Origin: Sulfoacidibacillus thermotolerans
GTDB taxonomy: Bacteria > Bacillota > Bacilli > Alicyclobacillales > SLC66
DNA: 64,000 nucleotides
Assembly (NCBI RefSeq): GCF_003144315.1
Contig: NZ_MPDK01000006.1
Location: forward strand, 1 to 64,000
Direction: 5' to 3'
Every line of letters starts with the position of its first letter. The stretch's first letter is position 1. The position numbers and the translations under genes were made by a program. The notes below the pieces were generated by a model, which was not told the origin of the DNA, did not search any database, and saw nothing but the letters and a program-made list of their open reading frames with translations. Positions 11,997 to 20,514 of this stretch are shown here, in pieces.

Positions 11997-12048
11997 GTCT
12001 TTATCCCATATCTATTAATCTTAAATTATTAGTAAAGGGGATTTGTTT

Positions 12049-12357
12049 ATGCAGAGAAAACAATACACCTTGGAATTCAAACAACAGGTGCTTCGGGAAG
12101 TACATGAAGTGGGCAATGCCGCCCAAGTTGCACGCCGCCACAGTCTTACCCCGAAGATGGTCTATAACTGGATGGAAAGATCCAAACACCATGACTGGCA
12201 AACCACATCTCCTGAGGCAAAGAAAGTTGCCAGTTATATTGCCTCTTATGCTGAGTTTAAGGAGCTTGAGACAGAGAACGATAAGCTCAAGAAAATCTTA
12301 GGCGACAAAGATCTAGAGATTGCAATCCTGCGTGACATGTTAAAAAAACCGTCATGA
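12049..12357 (+). CDS. IS3-family transposase OrfA
   Basis: The 102-residue DNA-binding subunit has an N-terminal helix-turn-helix (YTLEFKQQVLREVHEVGNAA) and a C-terminal leucine-rich coiled coil (ELETENDKLKKILGDKDLEI) as in OrfA proteins of the IS150/IS3 group. AAAGGGG lies seven bases before the ATG at 12049. The usual OrfA tail after ILRDMLKK seems to be replaced by PS and a stop, so its last residues may have been changed by the IS110 insertion. Without an intact OrfB it cannot transpose the element. Confidence 0.85.
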   Translation: MQRKQYTLEFKQQVLREVHEVGNAAQVARRHSLTPKMVYNWMERSKHHDWQTTSPEAKKVASYIASYAEFKELETENDKLKKILGDKDLEIAILRDMLKKPS

Positions 12358-12598
12358 CCGGATTTGGACACAAGCTATGATGAAAATGAATGGACTGTAC
12401 CCTCCATGTTCCGGTTCCGTCATAATGAGACTGAACCCGATCAGTTCGTAACTGCTTTGTGGTGGTTCGACCCCGATAAAAAAACTGAAAGGACAATCCT
12501 CGAAGCACAAGATATTGGACTGCGAGTCCGTGTAAAAAATTTTTATATGTCGGGTTGTCTTCGGGTTCATCATTCTGTGAACGGAGGCATGAAAGACG
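12358..12598 (+). ncRNA. candidate bridge-RNA region of the IS110-type element
   Basis: About 240 bases without a convincing gene lie between the presumed left end of the IS110-type element and its transposase start. In IS110-group elements (IS621 is the studied case) the non-coding left end is transcribed into a bridge RNA that pairs with donor and target DNA. Short hairpins are visible, for example GGACT/AGTCC at 12517-12529 with a three-base loop. The call rests on position and family knowledge; loop pairing to the target was not shown. Confidence 0.45.
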
Positions 12599-13925
12599 AT
12601 GATGGAGGCGATTTTGGAACGGTGTGCCGGACTTGACGTTCACCAAGAGACGGTTGTGGCCTGTGTATTGGTTGACCCGCTGGATCGCACCCCAAAGTCA
12701 GAGACCCGGACGTTTGGAACGATGATGAAGGATTTGCTGGCCTTGGGGGACTGGCTTGTTGAATTGGGATGTACGCATGTCGCTATGGAAAGCACAGGGG
12801 TAATATTGGAAACCTGTGTGGAATGTGTTGAAAGGCTTTGACCTCGAGTTACTCCTCGCGAATGCACACCATATGAAGAATCTCCCTGGCCGTAAAACCG
12901 ACATGAAAGATGCGGAGTGGCTAGCAAAATTGCTCCGAAGCGGACTGGTCGATGCAAGTTTTGTTCCACATCAAGAGACCCGAGAACTGAGAGACCTGAC
13001 ACGTTATCGAAAGAAGCTTGTCCAAGAAGCAACTGCAGAGAAAAACCGCATTTATCGACTTTTGCAGGATGCAAATATCAACTCACCTCCTACATGTCCG
13101 ACCTTTTTTGGCGTATCTGGTCGGCGTCTCCTCGAACAAATCATCAACGGTGAAGTGATTACTGAAGAATTCCTGCAAGCAGAAATGCGTGGTGCGTTGC
13201 GACGCAAGTCGACTGAACTTCTGCTCGCCCTGGAAGGACGCCTCCACCGACATCATCGAGACATGATTCGACTGTCGTATGAGCACATACAGTTCATCGA
13301 ACAGATGATTCTGGAAGTTGAGCAAGAGATTGAGAGGCATTTAGCGGATCGACAAGAGGCTGTGGAACTGCTTACAACCATTCCAGGCATCAACATGAAT
13401 GCTGCGGCGATTATTTTAGCTGAAATCGGAACAGACATTGAGCAGTTTGGCAGTGATAGTCAACTTGCTGCGTGGGCAGGTCTCAGTCCTGGCAACCACG
13501 AGAGCGCGGGCAAGAAAAAGAAAGTTAGTTCTCGAAGTGGGAATAAGGCCCTAAGGACCGTACTGGTCGAATGTGCATGGGCTGCAGCCAGAAGTAGACA
13601 AACCCGCTTGTCATCACGGTACTGGTTGTGGGTCCGCAGAATGGGCATCAAAAAGGCACTTGTCGCACTTGCGCATACAATGCTCCGTATTGTGTATCAT
13701 GTGCTTCACCGCAGACAACCGTATGAAGAGTTGGGTGCAGACTATCTCGAGAGGTTTCGAAAAGATAGTGAACAAGGTCGGGAAGCCGACATGATTCGCA
13801 AGCTTGCAGCCAAGGGCTACATGATCTCGCAACCAACCATCTAGCCTGCTATTAGATACTTCCAGTGAAGCTCGAGACTCTCGAAGCTTTATTCCTGCCT
13901 GCCCATTAATCGCCTCAATGAATCC
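12360..13925 (+). mobile_element. IS110-family element inserted in the IS3 orfB
   Basis: The insertion separates IS3 orfA from the 3' part of orfB. It has the IS110-group layout: a long non-coding left end, one transposase gene and a short right end of roughly 80 bases. IS110 elements lack terminal inverted repeats, so the ends (about 12345-12375 and 13900-13930) cannot be fixed from this copy alone. An empty-site copy of the IS3 element would define them. Confidence 0.7.
12599..13844 (+). pseudogene. IS110-family transposase, frameshifted
   Basis: Two overlapping frames make one transposase of about 415 residues. The first (12599-12841) carries the RuvC-like start CAGLDVHQETVVACV and AMESTGV. 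The second, from about 12816, carries NAHHMKNLPGRKTDMKDAEW (catalytic Asp) and the C-terminal Tnp_20 part (TTIPGINMNAAAIILAEIG ... SRSGNKALRTVLVECA). Family members read STGVYWKPVWNV at the joint; here one extra A at 12802/12803 shifts the frame. The element is probably inactive unless supplied in trans. Confidence 0.85.
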
Positions 13926-14702
13926 ATTTTCGTAAAAAAGCGAACCCCGCTCAGTGATGAATAGATAAAAGAATGGCTGTTGGAAGCGATAAGCAAAGAG
14001 GAATCGAGCTATGGCTACAGAAAACTGTCTATATATCTGAGACGGCACCATCATCTCGTCGTGAACAAGAAGAAGGTGTACCGACTTTGTGCAGAGCTGT
14101 ATATTCTAAAGCCGCAGCGTAGAAAAAGAATTCAGCATCCGAGGCGATTGGCGAACAATCGGGAGATCTCGGGATCAAACCAACTCTGGGAAATGGACAT
14201 CAAGTACGTTTACATCACTGGTGAACATCGATTCTTCTTCCTGATGAGCATGATCGATGTGTATGACCGTGCCATCGTAGACTATCACATCGGACCTTCC
14301 TGTGAGGGGCAGCATGCGGCACAGATATTGCAACGTGCTTTGTGGAAGAGGCAGCTGTTTGAGAACGATAGCCGACCTGTCATCCGAACGGATAACGGAC
14401 CGCAATGTATTAGCCATGCCTTTGAGGAGGGCTATGAGCGGCTAGGTGTGACACATGAGCGCATTCCACCGAAGACACCAAACAAGAATGCACACATTGA
14501 ATCGTTCCATTCACAGTTAGAAAGCGACAGACTGTCTGCTGCAGAGTTTGAGAACTATCAAGCAGCGTACGCAGTCGTGACAGAATATATTTCTCTTTAC
14601 ACCCAGCGCCGAATTCACGGCAGTCTGTATGATCTTGCACCTGAGCAGTTCATTCGTGCAATCGCAAATCATGAAGGTAATCCATTCGTTGTTAAAGTCT
14701 GA
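13923..14702 (+). pseudogene. IS3-family transposase OrfB, 5' part lost
   Basis: The open part from 13965 on (240 codons from the TTG at 13980) has the HTH_21 segment (SYGYRKLSIYLRRHHHLVVNKKKVYRL) and the rve DDE core: WEMDIKYV (first D), RTDNGPQ (second D) and the final E in NAHIESFHSQLE. The N-terminal 50-60 residues are displaced by the IS110 insertion. In the same frame upstream, RTPLSDE is followed by a TAG at 13962 where relatives probably have a Gln codon, so there is also a nonsense mutation. Inactive. Confidence 0.8.
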
Positions 14703-14744
14703 CCAAGCAATCTTGCGATTGAGTGAGATTAAGGGGGCAAGACT

Positions 14745-15089
14745 CTAAAATTGAGGGGTTAAACCGCACTGCACCCGTAATCCTTTCGATTTTAAGAGCT
14801 CAATCTCATTCTCTACATCGGGCAAAGTGTCTACAATGTTCTGCAGTAACGAGAACTTCGAGTTGTCCAAGGAGTAGTAGACCCATTGTGCCGTTTTGCG
14901 TTCTTTGACCAGTCCTGCTTGTTTCAGTTTGCGCAGGTGTTGTGAGATCGCCGGTTGAGACATGTCAAAAATGGCGACTAATTCACATACACATAGCTCT
15001 TCAAGCGCCAACAGCGCGAGCATGTGTAGCCTGGACTTATCTGCAAGGGCCTTGTAGACTTCTGCTAATTTTTCAAATGTGCTAGTCAG
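14745..15089 (-). CDS. arsR: ArsR/SmtB-family metalloid-responsive repressor
   Basis: The winged-helix repressor has the type-1 arsenite site CVC (C33 and C35) at the start of the DNA-reading region, then SQPAISQHLRKLKQAGLV. In-frame ATG does not appear until M23 (15023), which would remove helix 1. A CTG at 15089 lies seven bases after AGAGGTGA and gives a full-length 114-residue ArsR (MTSTFEKLAEVYKALADKSR), so CTG initiation is likely. The TAG stop is built from the terminal bases of the IS3 element, so the C-terminus may be altered. It probably controls the neighbouring ars genes. Confidence 0.85.
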   Translation of the reverse strand: MTSTFEKLAEVYKALADKSRLHMLALLALEELCVCELVAIFDMSQPAISQHLRKLKQAGLVKERKTAQWVYYSLDNSKFSLLQNIVDTLPDVENEIELLKSKGLRVQCGLTPQF

Positions 15090-15106
15090 TGGTTGTTCAC
15101 CTCTGT

Positions 15107-15760
15107 TTACGGAACATCTTTATATAGAACATCTGTCCGTGTGCCTTTGTGTGAATAAGGCACGTCTTCCCATACAAAATCAATCTCTTGAACCATATAG
15201 TGTTCCTCTGGATGCGACGGAAACAAGCTGTTTCGTAGCCAGTCCTCTTGCATTTGTTTGAGAGTCGTCACGGCTTCACTTTTTTCCTGTTGCGAAATGT
15301 GGGAAAGTCGTGCCTCCATGTCCATAATCTCGTGCGGAAAAAATCCCTCTTCTTCCACAACTTCAACGGTCTTTCCTGTGGAAACCCGTTGGACGATGTA
15401 CCATACTCCCGGTCGATTGCGCACATCTTGCGTTCCAAAACGCACCCGTCCTCCCGTGAGATAGGCCCCTACATCCCCGAGACAGGGGCTATTTCGAGAC
15501 AGAAATCGCAAGTCTGTTCGGTCCACCACTCCGTCAGGAAAAAGAAATTGTAAAGCGAGTGACATGGCATACATTCCGCGAAAGAGACCATCACAGGCGT
15601 GGCCGTGAAACCGAACGAGGTCGATGCCGTGAATTTGCTTGATTCCTTTAGCGTATCGGCCATGGCTCGATTCCGTATCTCGCACTTGAAAAACCGGGAG
15701 ATAGGGTGCGGTCTGCGCGTCTACACTCCAATACCATAATTCATCATCCATTTGCGTCAT
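15107..15760 (-). CDS. FmdE-like putative metal-binding protein
   Basis: This 217-residue protein resembles the FmdE domain (formylmethanofuran dehydrogenase subunit E family). It has a metal-site-like RFHGHACDG motif (H52, H54, C56), the segment FLSRNSPCLGDVGAYLTGGR (C93) and then a beta-rich part. Canonical FmdE sites read HGHxCPG. The start was set at the ATG at 15760 because GGAGAG precedes it. It ends 18 bases before the arsR start and lies after the terminator of the arsDA operon, so it probably shares a transcript with arsR. Its role here is unknown; a thiol or metal ligand function is only inference. Confidence 0.55.
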   Translation of the reverse strand: MTQMDDELWYWSVDAQTAPYLPVFQVRDTESSHGRYAKGIKQIHGIDLVRFHGHACDGLFRGMYAMSLALQFLFPDGVVDRTDLRFLSRNSPCLGDVGAYLTGGRVRFGTQDVRNRPGVWYIVQRVSTGKTVEVVEEEGFFPHEIMDMEARLSHISQQEKSEAVTTLKQMQEDWLRNSLFPSHPEEHYMVQEIDFVWEDVPYSHKGTRTDVLYKDVP

Positions 15761-15794
15761 TCCATCCACACTCTCCAAGATCTTTGTTGGACAA

Positions 15795-15821
15795 AAGGCC
15801 CGACCACTTCAGTCGGGCCTT
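15795..15821 (-). terminator. strong terminator of the arsD-arsA-dsrE operon
   Basis: A perfect 10-bp stem (AAGGCCCGAC / GTCGGGCCTT) with a seven-base loop is followed on the minus strand by TTTTG. It lies eight bases after the DsrE-family gene and before the FmdE-like gene, so it separates the upstream operon from the FmdE-arsR pair. Confidence 0.85.
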
Positions 15822-15828
15822 ATTCGCC

Positions 15829-16182
15829 TTAGAACGTTAAGACGGTATATCCTTCCCGAGCGTAACGGGAGAAGGCATCACGAGCAAATTCCAGGTTAAT
15901 GCTGTACTTGGTGGCGGGATCCGTCAGTTTCCAGTTGTTCACTTGATTCGAGCAAGCGCCAACCATAAGACCCGCTTCCCTTAGTTCGGTCAAAGTCTTG
16001 TCTACTTCTGGTGGAACGGATTCGAGTAACTTTACGGCCCCCGTAAACAAGAAGACCTCCACGGCATCAATCTGATTTTCTTCCCTCGCGTCAAAAATCC
16101 GTTTGGCTACATGCATTCCGGACGTTACCTTATCCTTTTGGTCCCATCCAGAGTTAATCACAATCGCAATTTTCCCACTCAT
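15829..16182 (-). CDS. DsrE/DsrF-like family protein
   Basis: The 117-residue product has the DsrE-like alpha/beta fold: an N-terminal strand KIAIVINSGW, VEVFLFTGAVKLL in the middle, and a conserved cysteine C77 in GLMVGACSNQ at the place where DsrE/TusD proteins carry the persulfide or substrate thiol. Its ATG overlaps the stop of the second arsA gene by four bases, so it is co-translated with the ArsA halves. DsrE relatives carry sulfane sulfur; a role in handling thiolated metalloid is inference. Confidence 0.8.
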   Translation of the reverse strand: MSGKIAIVINSGWDQKDKVTSGMHVAKRIFDAREENQIDAVEVFLFTGAVKLLESVPPEVDKTLTELREAGLMVGACSNQVNNWKLTDPATKYSINLEFARDAFSRYAREGYTVLTF

Positions 16183-17108
16183 CGTATCGTCTCCTTCGAT
16201 GTTACAATCATTTCATTCGCGAATCGTTTCAACAGATCGGCTCCGATGATTTCATCGTCTTGCAAGGTCGCAACAGCAATGGTTCGGTTCGTGTTGCGTT
16301 CTGTCAGTCGGTTAATATGTCCCATTTGTAATTCCAGACGCTTACCAAATAGTCGACTCGTTGCAGCTTCTTGCGGAAGCACCTGATTCACTACAATGCC
16401 TTGCGTATAAATGTGAGTTCGTTCCAAGTCCGCAATCGCACGCTCCATTTCCGCAATGGGTGTCGATTCCGGCAACGTAACGAACAACATCGCCGTTTCT
16501 TCTTTATCCTGTAACGTACGGATTGCTGCATTCATCCGAGCCAATTGCGCATCGTTCAGGGCTGCGGTTTCCGCCGTAAAGGCATCCTTATGCTCTAGCT
16601 CTTCTTCGTAATCCCAAGACAACTGCAAAAGGCGGACGGTGTGGCCCGTCGGGGCGGTATCAAACACGGTCACATCAAACTCGTTGGAGAGTACGTAGTC
16701 AAGGAACTCCTGAAAAACGGCCACTTCTTCCGTGCACGGGGAGTTCAATTCTTCACTGACACGTTCAACGGTCTCAGTGTCTTGAAACTGATCTTCCAGA
16801 GAGCCCAATACTTGATTCCGATAGGCATCAAACGCCACCTTTGGGTCAATTCGCACCAGCCATAGATTCGAGCCGGAAATTTGACGTGGGACTGAGGTAA
16901 CCGTTTCACCGAATACATTCCCAATATGAGCTGCTGGATCTGTGGTAACAAGTAGTGTCTTGAACCCTTGTTCCGCTGCAAACAACGCAGTTGTAGACGC
17001 AAGCGTCGTTTTACCGACGCCCCCTTTTCCCGCCAGGAAAATTCTCCGGCGCTTACCGCCCCGAGGAAGCAGTAGGTCGGCAGGCAGCTTATCATAGTTG
17101 AATGGCAT
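16179..17108 (-). CDS. arsA: ArsA-family ATPase, A2-like half
   Basis: The 309-residue soluble P-loop ATPase matches one half of the tandem ArsA of enteric bacteria. The deviant Walker A GKGGVGKT lies at 27-34, then TTDPAAHIGNVFG, C125 in NSPCTEEVAVFQEF (equivalent to C422 of E. coli ArsA) and DTAPTGHT. There is no second metalloid cysteine. The start at 17108 is chosen because GGGAGGG stands before it; the gene overlaps the first arsA half by 17 bases. With that half it should form the complete pseudo-dimer. Confidence 0.88.
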   Translation of the reverse strand: MPFNYDKLPADLLLPRGGKRRRIFLAGKGGVGKTTLASTTALFAAEQGFKTLLVTTDPAAHIGNVFGETVTSVPRQISGSNLWLVRIDPKVAFDAYRNQVLGSLEDQFQDTETVERVSEELNSPCTEEVAVFQEFLDYVLSNEFDVTVFDTAPTGHTVRLLQLSWDYEEELEHKDAFTAETAALNDAQLARMNAAIRTLQDKEETAMLFVTLPESTPIAEMERAIADLERTHIYTQGIVVNQVLPQEAATSRLFGKRLELQMGHINRLTERNTNRTIAVATLQDDEIIGADLLKRFANEMIVTSKETIR

Positions 17109-17967
17109 TTTGTAAATCCCTCCCGACTTGCTCCAGCATCGCAATCCCTTTGACCTCATCTGCATACAGAGGCATGTACCCAATTGGGCCCTCAAAGCGA
17201 GATTTCAGGTCTTGAATATACGGCTTTTGCTTCTGCCACCTGCGACTAGAATAGGGATGAGTGCGCTCGTCTTCCGGAATGACCCCGTTCACAATCGCGA
17301 CTTGATTTGAAATCTCCAGTTTCTGTAGTTCATTCGCTGAGCGCAGCATCTCATCCATTGGCAGTCGTGCGGGTTGTGTGACAAACACAAACGTGGTTCT
17401 TTGCGGATCTTGCAGCGCCCGCACCGCATTATCATATTGTTCTTTAGAAGCAGCAAGTGCATCCACACTGCCGATGCAGGTTTGGCCGCTTCCTTGTGCA
17501 CTTTCTTCGATGTGCAAACTCCAACTGCTCGGCAATTCCAGTAATCGTAACGTGTGGCCCGTCGGTGCTGTATCGAACACCACCCATTCATAATCAGGCT
17601 GATGCATACACGCGATGAACTGATCAAAGGTTGCGATTTCCTCAGTGCAAGGCCCATTCATCTTTTCTTCTGCGGCCTCTACGAATTCTTCTGGGAACAA
17701 TTCCCGCAGCGGAGCCAATGCCCGGTCTTTGTAGGATTGCAGGGCTTGGTCTGGGTTTATCTCCTGAATGAACAGATTAGCAACACCTTGGACGGCTCGT
17801 GCGTCCAGTCCGACTTCTTGCCCAAACACGTCTCCTAAGTTCGAAGCCGGATCCGTGGTGACCAGCAAGGTTCTCGCACCACGTTTAGCTAACATGACGG
17901 CTGCTGCCGAAGAGAGGGAAGTCTTGCCAACTCCTCCTTTCCCAGAAAAGAAAAGATACTTAGTCAT
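17092..17967 (-). CDS. arsA: ArsA-family ATPase, A1-like half
   Basis: The 291-residue ATPase has GKGGVGKT at 9-16, TTDPASNLGDVFG, FDTAPTGHTLRLL at 131-143, C107 in NGPCTEEIATF and C164 in GQTCIGSVDALA. These match C113 and C172 of E. coli ArsA, the A1-half metalloid ligands. With C125 of the next gene, the triad is complete but divided between two proteins. The gene overlaps arsD by four bases (ATGA). It should receive arsenite or antimonite from ArsD and energise an efflux partner, but no ArsB or Acr3 is present here. Confidence 0.9.
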   Translation of the reverse strand: MTKYLFFSGKGGVGKTSLSSAAAVMLAKRGARTLLVTTDPASNLGDVFGQEVGLDARAVQGVANLFIQEINPDQALQSYKDRALAPLRELFPEEFVEAAEEKMNGPCTEEIATFDQFIACMHQPDYEWVVFDTAPTGHTLRLLELPSSWSLHIEESAQGSGQTCIGSVDALAASKEQYDNAVRALQDPQRTTFVFVTQPARLPMDEMLRSANELQKLEISNQVAIVNGVIPEDERTHPYSSRRWQKQKPYIQDLKSRFEGPIGYMPLYADEVKGIAMLEQVGRDLQNAIQL

Positions 17968-18269
17968 GATTCGGACTCCTTTGCTGCAAACAATTCGTCC
18001 ATCTGCGGATAACGACCCTTAGTTCGAATCTCCCCATCCACGGTTACAATCGGCAATACTTTCATGCCTTGCTTCAACATGATTTCATATACGTGCTTGT
18101 TCGAAGTGAACGCCGTCGAATCCCGGCTCAGCATGTGACGGGCCACGGTATGTCCTTCTGTCTTAAGCTTCTCTACCATTTCCCCTACACGAATCAATTC
18201 CGGGTCTGGAGAGGTCCCGCACACACCCGTCGAGCAGCACATTTCCGGATCAAAAAAGTCGATTTTCAT
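17964..18269 (-). CDS. arsD: arsenic metallochaperone ArsD
   Basis: The 101-residue chaperone hands As(III) or Sb(III) to ArsA. The N-terminus MKIDFFDPEMCCSTGVCG carries the three ligands C11, C12 and C17 that match C12, C13 and C18 of E. coli ArsD; the thioredoxin-like rest ends with VDGEIRTKGRYPQMDEL. The C-terminal cysteine pairs of plasmid R773 ArsD are missing, as in many chromosomal forms. The ATG at 18269 has AGGAGG eight bases upstream. It overlaps the first arsA half, so both are made in concert. Confidence 0.92.
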   Translation of the reverse strand: MKIDFFDPEMCCSTGVCGTSPDPELIRVGEMVEKLKTEGHTVARHMLSRDSTAFTSNKHVYEIMLKQGMKVLPIVTVDGEIRTKGRYPQMDELFAAKESES

Positions 18270-18299
18270 CCCCAATTCCTCCTCTTTCAAACATCCTTA

Positions 18300-18587
18300 T
18301 TAGGAGCAACAGCTTCCCGAGCCACATCCGCAAGACGAGCCTTCCGAAACCACGTTCAATTCCGTTTCCCGAGAACGAAACATGTCCTCCGCAAATTCGT
18401 CCACCTTCATGGTCGCGATGAGTTTGACCGGGCGAACCAGAGCAAGGACCTCTTGCAAATCTGCGTCACTCGCTCCAAGCTCCCTCGCTTTGGGTACGTG
18501 ATACTCCATACAGGAAGTACATCCCACAGCCACCGCTGCCGCCACCTGAATCAGTTCCTTTGTAAGTTCATTCACTCCGAACGCCAT
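18300..18587 (-). CDS. carboxymuconolactone-decarboxylase-family (AhpD-like) protein with Cys-rich tail
   Basis: The 95-residue protein has an AhpD-like redox site C23-T-S-C26 with H30 (VGCTSCMEYH) and the helical CMD fold. The C-terminus adds a cysteine cluster CGCGSGSCC (C86, C88, C93, C94) that is not part of the domain and looks like a metal or metalloid clamp. It is the first gene of the arsD-arsA operon, 30 bases before arsD. AAAGG abuts the first ATG, so a GTG at 18575 may be the real start. Peroxidatic or thiol-transfer activity is inferred. Confidence 0.82.
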   Translation of the reverse strand: MAFGVNELTKELIQVAAAVAVGCTSCMEYHVPKARELGASDADLQEVLALVRPVKLIATMKVDEFAEDMFRSRETELNVVSEGSSCGCGSGSCCS

Positions 18588-18617
18588 CCTTTAAACGTAA
18601 TATAAAAATATACTTAT

Positions 18618-18649: not shown

Positions 18650-19024
18650 CCTTCGGAAAAAAATTTCTTTCTTGTCGGGACTATTTCTGAAATCGTCCGA
18701 GGTACACATTGAGCAAGAGTTTTGCGAATTATGAGGGCATCTTCCATTTGAACTTCTCCATGTATGGATCGAACAACGACTTCATAAGGATGAGGGACCT
18801 CTTTATCTTTGACACGTGTCCCGGAGGGGATTGGTCCAGATCCAATCAAAATGTTCGCTTGCTCGAATTTCTCTATGGCCTTGAACAGACGCAGGGCGAG
18901 AATATCCGTACAAACAGGAATAGCCGTATTCTATGAAACCCGGTACCGACTCAAAATCCTTCTTTCCACCCAATGCAATCACGAGAAAATCATACGGCAC
19001 ACTTATTTCATCGTCTAAATACAC
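18650..19024 (-). pseudogene. remnant of an FAD-dependent NAD(P)-disulfide oxidoreductase (SQR/NDH-2 like)
   Basis: One frame (19024 on) gives VPYDFLVIALGGKKDFESVPG, a typical internal stretch of sulfide:quinone reductase or type-2 NADH dehydrogenase flavoproteins. Near 18915 the frame breaks and another frame continues with ILALRLFKAIEKFEQ and ILIGSGPIPSGTRVKDK, which fits the second nucleotide-binding region of SQR-like proteins. Both FAD-binding ends are missing, so only about a third of a gene is left. It fills most of the space between the divergent ars and CMD-TauE operons. Confidence 0.5.
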
Positions 19025-19193: not shown

Positions 19194-19376
19194 ATGATCG
19201 ATTCCAACCAAGACGATCAATCACCACTTGAGGATCCTAGAGCGAGGAAGTTGATAAAAGGACTGCGGGAAGAGAAATATATAGTCTATTCCCTTGACGA
19301 AACCAAATTGGATCGGATTCCATTAGTTCACTATGAGGACAACGAATTTTTAGGAGGAAATGAAAATGAAGATTGA
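19194..19376 (+). CDS. small hypothetical protein
   Basis: A hydrophilic product of about 60 residues (MIDSNQDDQSPLEDPRARKL...), rich in charged residues and without a recognised domain. An in-frame ATG at 19161 overlaps the TATAAT box, so it would not lie on the transcript; the ATG at 19194 is the next choice, but its AAAGGAGG is about 15 bases away, so the start is unsure. It overlaps the next gene's start by a few bases and may mainly serve translational coupling, or be the C-terminal remnant of a larger gene. Confidence 0.4.
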   Translation: MIDSNQDDQSPLEDPRARKLIKGLREEKYIVYSLDETKLDRIPLVHYEDNEFLGGNENED

Positions 19377-19728
19377 AGAATTGCTTTCCGCGATGGAAAA
19401 AGAGGGCGGATCACGCCCAGTGACGATGGAACTGCTTAGTCAGTTGGACGAGAGTGCCGTGTTTGAGCATGCCAGTAATAAGCAGTGGTTATTTAGCAAG
19501 ACAGCGGTTCCAAATAAATACAAGCTCTTGATGAGCATCACGGCAGCGGCAGCAGTCGGACAAGAGAACTGTATTAAAACCTATGTGAAGAGTGCTTTAC
19601 GACAAGGGATACAGAAAGATGAAATCATGGAAGCCTTACTTGTAGCACGATTTGTGAACGCAACAACCGTAATTTCCGCTTCCGTAGACGCCATGAAACT
19701 TCTCGTCGAAGACGGTCAAACGAGTTAG
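19366..19728 (+). CDS. carboxymuconolactone-decarboxylase-family protein lacking the CxxC pair
   Basis: The 120-residue CMD-like protein has the helical fold (KYKLLMSITAAAAVGQENC ... EIMEALLVARFVNATTVI). The usual AhpD motif CxxC reads QENC, so only one of the two redox cysteines is left. The second ATG (19366) is preferred because AGGAGG lies eight bases before it. It is distinct from the CMD protein at 18300-18587, which has CxxC and a Cys tail. It precedes the TauE/SafE gene by 39 bases and probably shares its operon. Activity unknown. Confidence 0.75.
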   Translation: MKIEELLSAMEKEGGSRPVTMELLSQLDESAVFEHASNKQWLFSKTAVPNKYKLLMSITAAAAVGQENCIKTYVKSALRQGIQKDEIMEALLVARFVNATTVISASVDAMKLLVEDGQTS

Positions 19729-19767: not shown

Positions 19768-20514
19768 ATGACACATGGGTTATTAGTCATCTTAATCTCC
19801 TTAATCGTGGGATTGGTAACGACCTACCTTAAAATTACCATCGATCGTATTTTCTTGGTATTGCTGTTGGTGCTTTGGATGGGATTCGGCATTCAACAAG
19901 CTGTCGTGATCAACGCACTCGTCATGCTCTTGGCCTCGTTACTGTTCTTTCGCGGAGCGAGAGCACAGCTATCCAAGTTACCTGGCGCAGTGAGATGGAG
20001 CGTTGTGATTCTCTCCTTCGTCGGTGGGATCGTTGGACGATGGCTCGGATTGCATACGTCCAGTCGCGGCTTACTCCTCATTCTCGGCATCTATGCCGTT
20101 TTCGTTGGGCTGCGTCTCTTGATGATCAAACCTAAGATGGTCCCGGATGGAAAGATACATGCAGGAGTCAGCATCGTTACATTCATATTTAGTATCCTCA
20201 CAGGGCTGATTAGTGCCGGTGGGAAACCGTTGCAAATTCCTATTTTTGTTAAATGGTTTAAGTTGTCGATGCCCCAAGCCTATTTAGTGGCATCACTGGG
20301 TAATATTTTTTCGACCGTTGGTTTTCTCGTCGGAGAACTCTGGTTTGCTAAAGCAATCCCACTATCGAATCTTGCCTGGTCCTGGATATATTTCGTGGGA
20401 ATAAGCTTGGTCATGTTCATCTTTGAACCAATGTGGAGTCAGAAAATCCAGAAGTGGGTGACTTTGCTCGTAGGCATTTTGTTAACTGCAGTGGGCATTA
20501 AACTCATGATATGA
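19768..20514 (+). CDS. TauE/SafE-family membrane permease
   Basis: The 248-residue protein has about eight transmembrane helices in two related halves, as in sulfite-exporter TauE/SafE proteins, which move sulfite, sulfoacetate and other anions out of or into the cell. It lies 39 bases after the CMD-like gene. It is the only integral membrane protein of the ars island and therefore a candidate, by position only, for the exit route that lacks an ArsB/Acr3 here. A terminator follows 53 bases after its stop. Confidence 0.85.
   Translation: MTHGLLVILISLIVGLVTTYLKITIDRIFLVLLLVLWMGFGIQQAVVINALVMLLASLLFFRGARAQLSKLPGAVRWSVVILSFVGGIVGRWLGLHTSSRGLLLILGIYAVFVGLRLLMIKPKMVPDGKIHAGVSIVTFIFSILTGLISAGGKPLQIPIFVKWFKLSMPQAYLVASLGNIFSTVGFLVGELWFAKAIPLSNLAWSWIYFVGISLVMFIFEPMWSQKIQKWVTLLVGILLTAVGIKLMI

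Follow-up and report, generated by a model that had tools for sequence, protein, structure and literature searches.

Accessory genes are already known in arsenic (ars) operons. In Ochrobactrum tritici, the ars1 operon is reported to carry a CBS-domain gene between arsA and arsB, and arsB alone gave no resistance, whereas arsB together with the CBS gene did (PMC2440759). Likewise, TnAtcArs of Acidithiobacillus caldus is described as carrying NADH-oxidoreductase and CBS-like ORFs (PMC1142338). The operon presented in this study resembles both in having non-classical ars accessory genes. The protein families are unrelated, and FmdE does not appear in the parts of these two reports that were consulted.

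FmdE (PF02663) is a widespread family whose structures have been solved, and for which we found no settled function. A structural survey of the family describes, for 2glz, a solvent-accessible Zn/Ni site made up of two His and two Cys and, for 2gvi, bound Zn with an unidentified ligand 1.8 Å away from the second Cys (PMC2954224). In the same text, most PF02663 genes are reported to adjoin metal-ion transporters, and formylmethanofuran dehydrogenase operons hold just 13 of the 208 genes (PMC2954224).

In the open-licence literature, we found no published report of FmdE in an arsenic operon. The only text on both FmdE and arsenic was a microbial-mat study, in which fmdE stands under methane. Searches for formylmethanofuran dehydrogenase subunit E with arsR, and for FmdE with TusA, returned nothing, and the term "FmdE" is absent from the arsenic paper on A. 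mali FL18. Searches on arsD/arsA1/arsA2, Alicyclobacillus ars genes, DsrE with arsA, TnAtcArs, ars neighbourhoods and thioarsenate likewise listed nothing on FmdE. As far as found, FmdE as an ars-operon accessory is thus absent from the literature searched.

Gene content of the operon

The window, that is, the whole stretch of 64,000 nucleotides of Sulfoacidibacillus thermotolerans that was analysed, contains the following features.

12043 to 14755, plus strand: element that we read as IS3-type, with its outer end near 14755; orfA at 12043-12357 (HTH_Tnp_1), orfB at 13980-14702 (rve/HTH_21)
About 12816 to 13844, plus strand: IS110-type transposase (IS110 families) interrupting the IS3-type element
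14745 to 15089, minus strand: arsR, ArsR/SmtB repressor with ELCVCEL (CxC); HTH_5, E 3.6e-18; 96% identity to SO9
15107 to 15760, minus strand: fmdE-like gene, 217 aa; PF02663, 48.6 bits; predicted ligands H52, H54, C56 and C93; without C-terminal zinc finger
15796 to 15820, minus strand: 10-bp G/C-rich hairpin and short T run, between the DsrE-like gene and fmdE
15829 to 16182, minus strand: DsrE-like gene, 117 aa, with one conserved Cys (C77); PF02635, 21.5 bits
16179 to 17108, minus strand: arsA2, single-domain ArsA ATPase; PF02374, E 1.1e-65; TIGR00345, 198.9 bits
17092 to 17967, minus strand: arsA1, single-domain ArsA ATPase; PF02374, E 2.5e-74
17964 to 18269, minus strand: arsD, arsenite metallochaperone; NF033727, 113.5 bits (cut-off 90)
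18300 to 18587, minus strand: carboxymuconolactone decarboxylase (CMD)/AhpD-like gene; PF02627, E 1.2e-11
18684 to 19024, minus strand: decayed remnant of a FAD-dependent (type III SQR-related) oxidoreductase; three tblastn fragments in three frames
About 19198-19373, plus strand: broken second arsR-like gene, divergent from the operon
19360-19728, plus strand: gene for a CMD-like protein, divergent from the operon
19768-20514, plus strand: TauE/SafE permease gene, divergent from the operon

The operon in the window runs CMD-arsD-arsA1-arsA2-DsrE-like-fmdE-arsR. Its order recurs on plasmid p1 of Alicyclobacillus sp. SO9, where the full order is FAD oxidoreductase-CMD-arsD-arsA1-arsA2-DsrE-like-fmdE-arsR-arsB-arsC-arsC-trxB and where the NCBI annotation names the fmdE product "FmdE family protein". 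A preliminary description of this DNA had viewed fmdE as a partner of arsR. Rather than forming a two-gene pair with it, fmdE is one optional member of a larger arsD-arsA1-arsA2-DsrE-like operon. No formylmethanofuran dehydrogenase genes were found among the operon genes in the window or on the SO9 plasmid.

With arsRDABC-type efflux operons this locus has in common arsD, arsA and a CxC-type arsR and, in its relatives, arsB and a thioredoxin-type arsC. It differs in that arsA is split into two single-domain genes, and in the extra CMD/AhpD, SQR-related FAD, DsrE-like and FmdE-like genes. The window holds arsR, arsD, arsA1 and arsA2, and arsB follows arsR in the other four loci with an intact fmdE. 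Judged by gene content, the operon family is an arsenic efflux operon, of which the window copy has lost arsB. ArsR scored 103.7 bits against the HTH_metalloreg model NF033788 (cut-off 55), and its CxC motif is what we take to be the As(III) site. In line with such a site, two cysteines in ArsR are discussed in the O. tritici report (PMC2440759).

The assignments of two further products are weaker. The DsrE-like protein stays just under the PF02635 cut-off (21.5 against 22.7 bits); it is 86-98% identical in four relatives, and C77 is invariant. The FAD oxidoreductase, which is the first gene of the SO9 operon, matched NF049943 with 148.4 bits, far under the cut-off of 525. As a separate observation, the CMD/AhpD-like protein ends in a Cys-rich tail, CGCGSGSCCS, which is at least partly kept in aligned relatives and looks metal-binding.

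The FmdE-like protein

The fmdE-like reading frame starts with ATG at 15760 and stops with TAA at 15107-15109 (minus strand). It had been proposed that its product belongs to the FmdE family, with HGHACDG and a second conserved Cys as the metal site, and both proposals were borne out. Against PF02663.19 (FmdE) in Pfam the protein, searched as the longer frame from an upstream TTG at 15778, scored 48.6 bits with a cut-off of 22.9 (E 1.1e-12; profile positions 1-124 of 133). A genome-wide search with the FmdE profile gave this gene as the single match in the assembly (49.8 bits), and none of the NCBIfam models matched the protein at E 0.1. HGHACDG and the second conserved Cys are present. The residues H52, H54, C56 and C93 are the equivalents of the 2glz Zn/Ni ligands His15, His17, Cys19 and Cys55, and are invariant in six of six aligned homologues. 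Their columns were also aligned in a profile-profile comparison with 12 canonical FmdE proteins (probability 97.7, E 2.4e-12, 18% identity). FHGHxC and the second Cys are common to this protein and the PF02663 core structures 2glz, 2gvi and 3d00 (PMC2954224). The fmdE-like product probably binds a metal or metalloid at this predicted His2Cys2 site, and it is from the 2glz and 2gvi structures that we infer metal binding.

The protein also departs from canonical FmdE. It has CxGDVxxYLTG where the canonical sequence is CxxDxxQxxTGCT, and about 30 extra residues ahead of FHGHxC when compared with the canonical L174 protein. In the dimer-axis motif (Asp58, Gln61 and Thr67 of 2glz), with positions counted from the second Cys, Asp is kept as D96, and Gln and Thr are replaced by A99 and R105. 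FastTree was run on 86 FmdE proteins, made up of 78 called in the searched regions, two from G032 and six members of the clade alignment. The resulting tree placed the five intact copies from ars operons together with a homologue from a Sulfuricella plasmid in one clade (support 1.0). All six clade members carry CxGDVxxYL after the first motif, a feature of none of the 80 others, and none of them has the CxxC beyond residue 120 (zinc finger) that is present in 77 of the 80. By these marks, the fmdE-like protein is a member of a divergent FmdE clade lacking the zinc finger. Loss of the Gln/Thr motif reads as a mark of this clade and does not by itself rule out membership in the FmdE domain family. 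AlphaFold2, run on an alignment of two sequences only, returned pLDDT 36.2 and pTM 0.31. Searches of PDB sequences with the protein and with its clade profile found no FmdE entry, whereas the canonical FmdE profile does retrieve them.

Distribution and selection

Of the 59 genomes of the order, 17 had ArsD (PF06953) matches, 23 in all. All 23 arsD loci were inspected by tblastn with the SO9 proteins, the SO9 locus itself by annotation. An intact fmdE lies between the DsrE-like gene and arsR, on the same strand, in five of them: the window (G000 contig C92), G026, G031, G049 near 978 kb, and the SO9 plasmid (G040 contig C2). Orthologues at the four loci other than the window are 73-92% identical. 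At four more loci (G002, G003 and both in G054) fmdE is frameshifted or fragmentary, and arsD, arsA1 and arsA2 are all without internal stop; among these, one G054 locus no longer has the DsrE-like gene, and in G002 an early stop interrupts it. The DsrE-like gene occurs without fmdE at this site in five loci (G056, G040 C1, G049 near 2.24 Mb, G051 C126 and G032). Neither gene is found in seven (G001, G004, two in G050, G053, G051 C308 and G010), G004 also missing the arsR match, and the contig ends before the site in the remaining two (G000 C86 and G012). This mixture of intact, decayed and absent copies indicates that fmdE is an optional part at one fixed site, which has decayed more than once. 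Efflux therefore does not need fmdE, as seven of the 23 loci have neither gene and five have the DsrE-like gene alone.

For fmdE, dS was unsaturated in four of ten pairs, and in these Nei-Gojobori dN/dS was 0.215, 0.111, 0.116 and 0.095; computable pairs gave 0.018-0.044 for ArsA1, 0.019-0.100 for ArsD, and 0.110 and 0.045 for ArsR. The fmdE product is therefore under purifying selection, weaker than that on ArsA1. Because intact orthologues share the site in four other loci and dN/dS is low, the presence of fmdE is not a matter of chance. Conserved position and purifying selection together argue for a genuine, selected and optional component, and fmdE is very probably an accessory of the arsenic operon.

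Divergence between the window and SO9 is uneven. For the DsrE-like gene, fmdE and arsR their dS is 0.12-0.20, compared with 0.49-0.78 for arsA2, arsD and arsA1. Measured in 150-base steps, identity ranges over 0.83-0.91 between 18450 and 16201 and over 0.89-0.98 between 16200 and 14851, leaving out two end steps (0.773 and 0.727) that run into unlike sequence. Our own reading is that the DsrE-fmdE-arsR block may have been exchanged as a unit. The sharp dS shifts in 14745-18590 relative to L012 suggest mosaic exchange between the window contig and a plasmid of a genome in another family.

The arsR end of the operon

It was suggested that fmdE follows the ars operon terminator and lies 18 bases before arsR. 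The second statement holds in that arsR is the next gene, but not in the distance. There is no ATG, GTG or TTG at the expected arsR start; where SO9 has its annotated TTG, the aligned codon is CTG (15087-15089), 17 bases past the fmdE stop. As the aligned start is CTG and the next in-frame ATG lies at 15023, the window copy of arsR may be poorly translated.

As to the terminator, the hairpin is real (fold z -3.55) but sits inside the operon and not at its end, since in relatives the operon continues through fmdE and arsR into arsB and arsC. The same region gave z -3.41 in SO9, -1.66 in G026 and -2.13 in G031, where an unrelated hairpin occupies the same place. Values were +0.62, with no hairpin, in the first G049 locus, -1.11 in the second, which is without fmdE, and +0.86 in G056. 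A consensus scan of the region between the DsrE-like gene and fmdE did not report the hairpin among its terminators and showed nothing promoter-like there, region totals being not above those of shuffles. The hairpin is a possible internal partial terminator or attenuator, though not in every locus.

Beyond arsR, likeness to SO9 stops in the last arsR codons, and transposase sequence starts there. The window ars operon is without its own permease because IS3/IS110 sequence occupies the place that arsB and arsC have in relatives. Elsewhere in the genome are two arsB genes, with 91% and 76% identity to that of SO9, and acr3 had no match. There is also a second ars operon like that of the window, the ends of which lie on the short contigs C86 (L089, broken inside arsA1) and C85 (L182, broken inside arsR). 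The middle of this second operon, where fmdE would be, is absent from the assembly as a separate copy, and assembly may have collapsed it with that of the window.

FmdE in other arsenic loci

In a sample of the class Bacilli, FmdE matches were found in 12 of 398 genomes (11 above the cut-off). Eight of these 12 have FmdE in an arsenic locus: G000, G002 (broken), G026, G031, G040, G032 (two of four copies), G064 and G104. They are not independent, representing two FmdE branches (divergent and canonical) and three kinds of locus. No arsenic genes were seen near FmdE in the regions searched of the other four (G219, G082, G114 and G095).

The two kinds of locus that differ from the window's both bring in sulfur-related genes. 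In G032, where FmdE is canonical, one strand carries arsR-OsmC-arsB-OsmC-fmdE-DsrE2-like-TusA-arsR-fmdE-TauE, followed by a Cation_efflux gene; the name DsrE2-like rests on 84.3 bits to Pfam DrsE_2, as NCBIfam DsrE2 gave 54.4 bits for a cut-off of 210. The other two G032 FmdE genes are away from ars genes, with TauE genes no more than about 1 kb distant. By sequence likeness, G051, which was partly scanned, has the G032 order. This order, in a related genus (L080 4788-12105 and L086 1113-8492), makes up a combined arsenic and sulfur-trafficking cluster. The other arrangement also has canonical fmdE, as fmdE-tauE-acr3-arsC-arsR in G064 and as fmdE-tauE-acr3, with arsC-arsR about 2 kb upstream, in G104. 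Among the five genomes reached in a search for more FmdE-Acr3 operons in the family and order of G064, the same two matched. In two Bacilli genomes the canonical fmdE-tauE-acr3 group, together with arsC-arsR close by, spans L174 5971-9433 and L175 3274-8631.

The rest of the phylum gives a different picture. FmdE matched in 71 of 299 genomes (84 places, the window's own included), and 82 regions were examined around the 83 other places, about 6 kb on either side. ArsR was called in two of them (L108 and L137), in neither case adjoining FmdE. Acr3, ArsC, ArsB, ArsD, TusA, DsrE and TauE had no match in these 82 non-Bacilli regions, with profiles built from few sequences and a crude ORF caller that did not recover the FmdE protein itself in 15 of 88 regions. 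Other matches in the 82 regions were a marginal one to ArsA in L135 (E 7e-4, perhaps another P-loop ATPase), CMD in L137 and OsmC in L162. In L108, an ArsE-type thioredoxin-like gene (90.3 bits, cut-off 62) precedes ArsR, at a distance of about 3.4 kb from FmdE. L137 (2881-5120) has an ArsR-CMD pair and an ArsM-like methyltransferase, 0.8-3 kb from a canonical fmdE on the other strand (convergent); the best NCBIfam match of this methyltransferase is arsenite methyltransferase, with 67.7 bits for a cut-off of 263. As both ArsR genes have arsenic-linked neighbours, a looser link between FmdE and arsenic in the phylum is possible. The ArsR-CMD pair of L137 resembles the divergent arsR and CMD genes of the window (19198-19728).

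A general pairing of FmdE with arsR across the phylum is thus rejected as far as tested, ArsR being present in only two of the 82 regions. From the survey counts, FmdE in an efflux locus is rare in the phylum sample and common among the few Bacilli that have FmdE. The earlier view that an FmdE-arsR partnership is unusual therefore stands across the phylum (two of 82 regions) and fails within Bacilli, where it is recurrent (eight of 12 genomes).

Proposed role

Neighbouring genes suggest a role that joins arsenic to reduced sulfur, because they include, in the window or at other loci, those for DsrE-like, SQR-related FAD, TauE, TusA and DsrE2-like proteins. A metal or metalloid sensing or storage role had been suggested; the sulfur-related neighbours favour arsenic-sulfur handling no less than sensing. 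We tentatively propose that the FmdE-like protein is a cytosolic metal/thiol-site protein working alongside the DsrE-like protein, which would buffer arsenite, either as such or as adducts with sulfide or low-molecular-weight thiols. ArsD, ArsA1 and ArsA2 would then drive arsenite out through ArsB, and As(III) would induce the operon by way of the CxC-type ArsR that it encodes. Ahead of fmdE, the hairpin may leave fmdE-arsR-arsB less expressed than arsD-arsA. This combined mechanism, in which buffering precedes ArsD/ArsA1/ArsA2/ArsB efflux, is a working model whose chances we put at a little under even.

Zn, Ni or some other metal may also be the true ligand. The site could thus instead serve metal homeostasis, the FmdE-like protein binding or delivering Zn (or Ni) and so protecting or re-metallating arsenite-damaged proteins, with arsenic itself not a ligand. 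The Zn/Ni of 2glz, the Zn of 2gvi and the metal-ion transporters reported beside most PF02663 genes would agree with this (PMC2954224). So would a cation transporter and a cation diffusion facilitator, each with its own ArsR gene, about 7-10 kb upstream of fmdE on the SO9 plasmid, the Cation_efflux gene after fmdE-tauE in G032, and the neighbours of FmdE in G219, which in our reading look like metal/cobalamin-type ABC transporter genes. However, no such transporter is found among the arsenic genes of the SO9 operon, and what the intact loci have in common is arsenic genes and the DsrE-like gene; we consider pure metal homeostasis unlikely, if still a serious contender. Another view gives the sulfur partners the leading part. 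FmdE would act with DsrE-like, SQR-like and TauE proteins in the transfer or detoxification of persulfide, sulfite or thiosulfate, for instance during processing of sulfide minerals or thioarsenic species, and its place in arsenic operons would reflect the coincidence of arsenic and sulfur stress. In Thioalkalivibrio, DsrE/F-like genes of unknown role are reported to change expression under arsenite, and thioarsenates are discussed (PMC6620896). FmdE adjoins TauE in G064, G104 and one G032 locus and lies within about 1 kb of it at two more G032 loci, and DsrE2-like and TusA genes stand beside FmdE in G032/G051. Against this, we know of no sulfurtransferase activity for FmdE, and TusA, DsrE and TauE had no matches in the 82 non-Bacilli regions, as searched with small home-made profiles and the crude ORF caller. 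A purely sulfur-directed function is therefore rather unlikely in our judgement.

It could also be argued that fmdE is a near-neutral passenger, travelling with a mobile, recombining ars block and being lost. Four of the nine fmdE copies at the site are decayed, divergence between the window and SO9 is mosaic, the SO9 copy is on a plasmid, and dN/dS of fmdE is above that of ArsA1. Yet dN/dS is still 0.095-0.215, the four ligands are invariant in the five intact copies, and canonical FmdE genes sit in ars loci of other lineages too, which makes a passenger improbable. For a subunit or maturation factor of Mo/W formylmethanofuran dehydrogenase, only the family name speaks. The zinc finger and the Gln/Thr motif are missing, and such operons account for few PF02663 genes (13 of 208; PMC2954224). 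We reject this role as next to impossible, the operon genes in the window and in SO9 being arsenic genes and their partners.

Returning to arsenite buffering, a wider version may be considered. FmdE-core proteins in Bacilli might form a recurrent, unrecognised class of arsenic-sulfur detoxification proteins, for which two branches, the divergent zinc-finger-less clade and canonical FmdE, were recruited to arsenic loci alongside DsrE, TusA and TauE proteins, and whose His2Cys2 site would hold (thio-)arsenite and pass it to ArsD/ArsA or the pump. So broad a generalization is speculative and has a small chance of holding as a whole. Intact, decayed and missing fmdE at the same site of a well-understood detoxification operon offer a genetic handle on the metal site. 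This poorly understood family may thus help some cells, of Alicyclobacillus and related bacteria, to handle arsenic. If FmdE binds arsenite or thio-arsenic, it would be an added resistance component for bacteria of sulfide minerals and hot springs, where arsenic meets reduced sulfur.

Relatives outside the order

The spread of the divergent clade was surveyed within the phylum of the window; the one member found beyond it is that of Sulfuricella. Two records of the plasmid collection hold a relative of the fmdE-like protein, those of SO9 and Sulfuricella, and the DsrE-like protein matches one, SO9. One scan of genome contigs gave one relative, and none of 76 pattern matches in viral contigs was confirmed. 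The closest relative outside the order is the FmdE-family protein WP_009207783.1 of Sulfuricella denitrificans plasmid pSCD, 41% identical over its full length. Unlike the window gene, that of pSCD (L013 9908-10636) adjoins an F0F1 ATP synthase gene cluster and a rhodanese gene, with no ars genes beside it. Its product is probably exported, since the N-terminus, as read from the alignment, looks lipoprotein-like.
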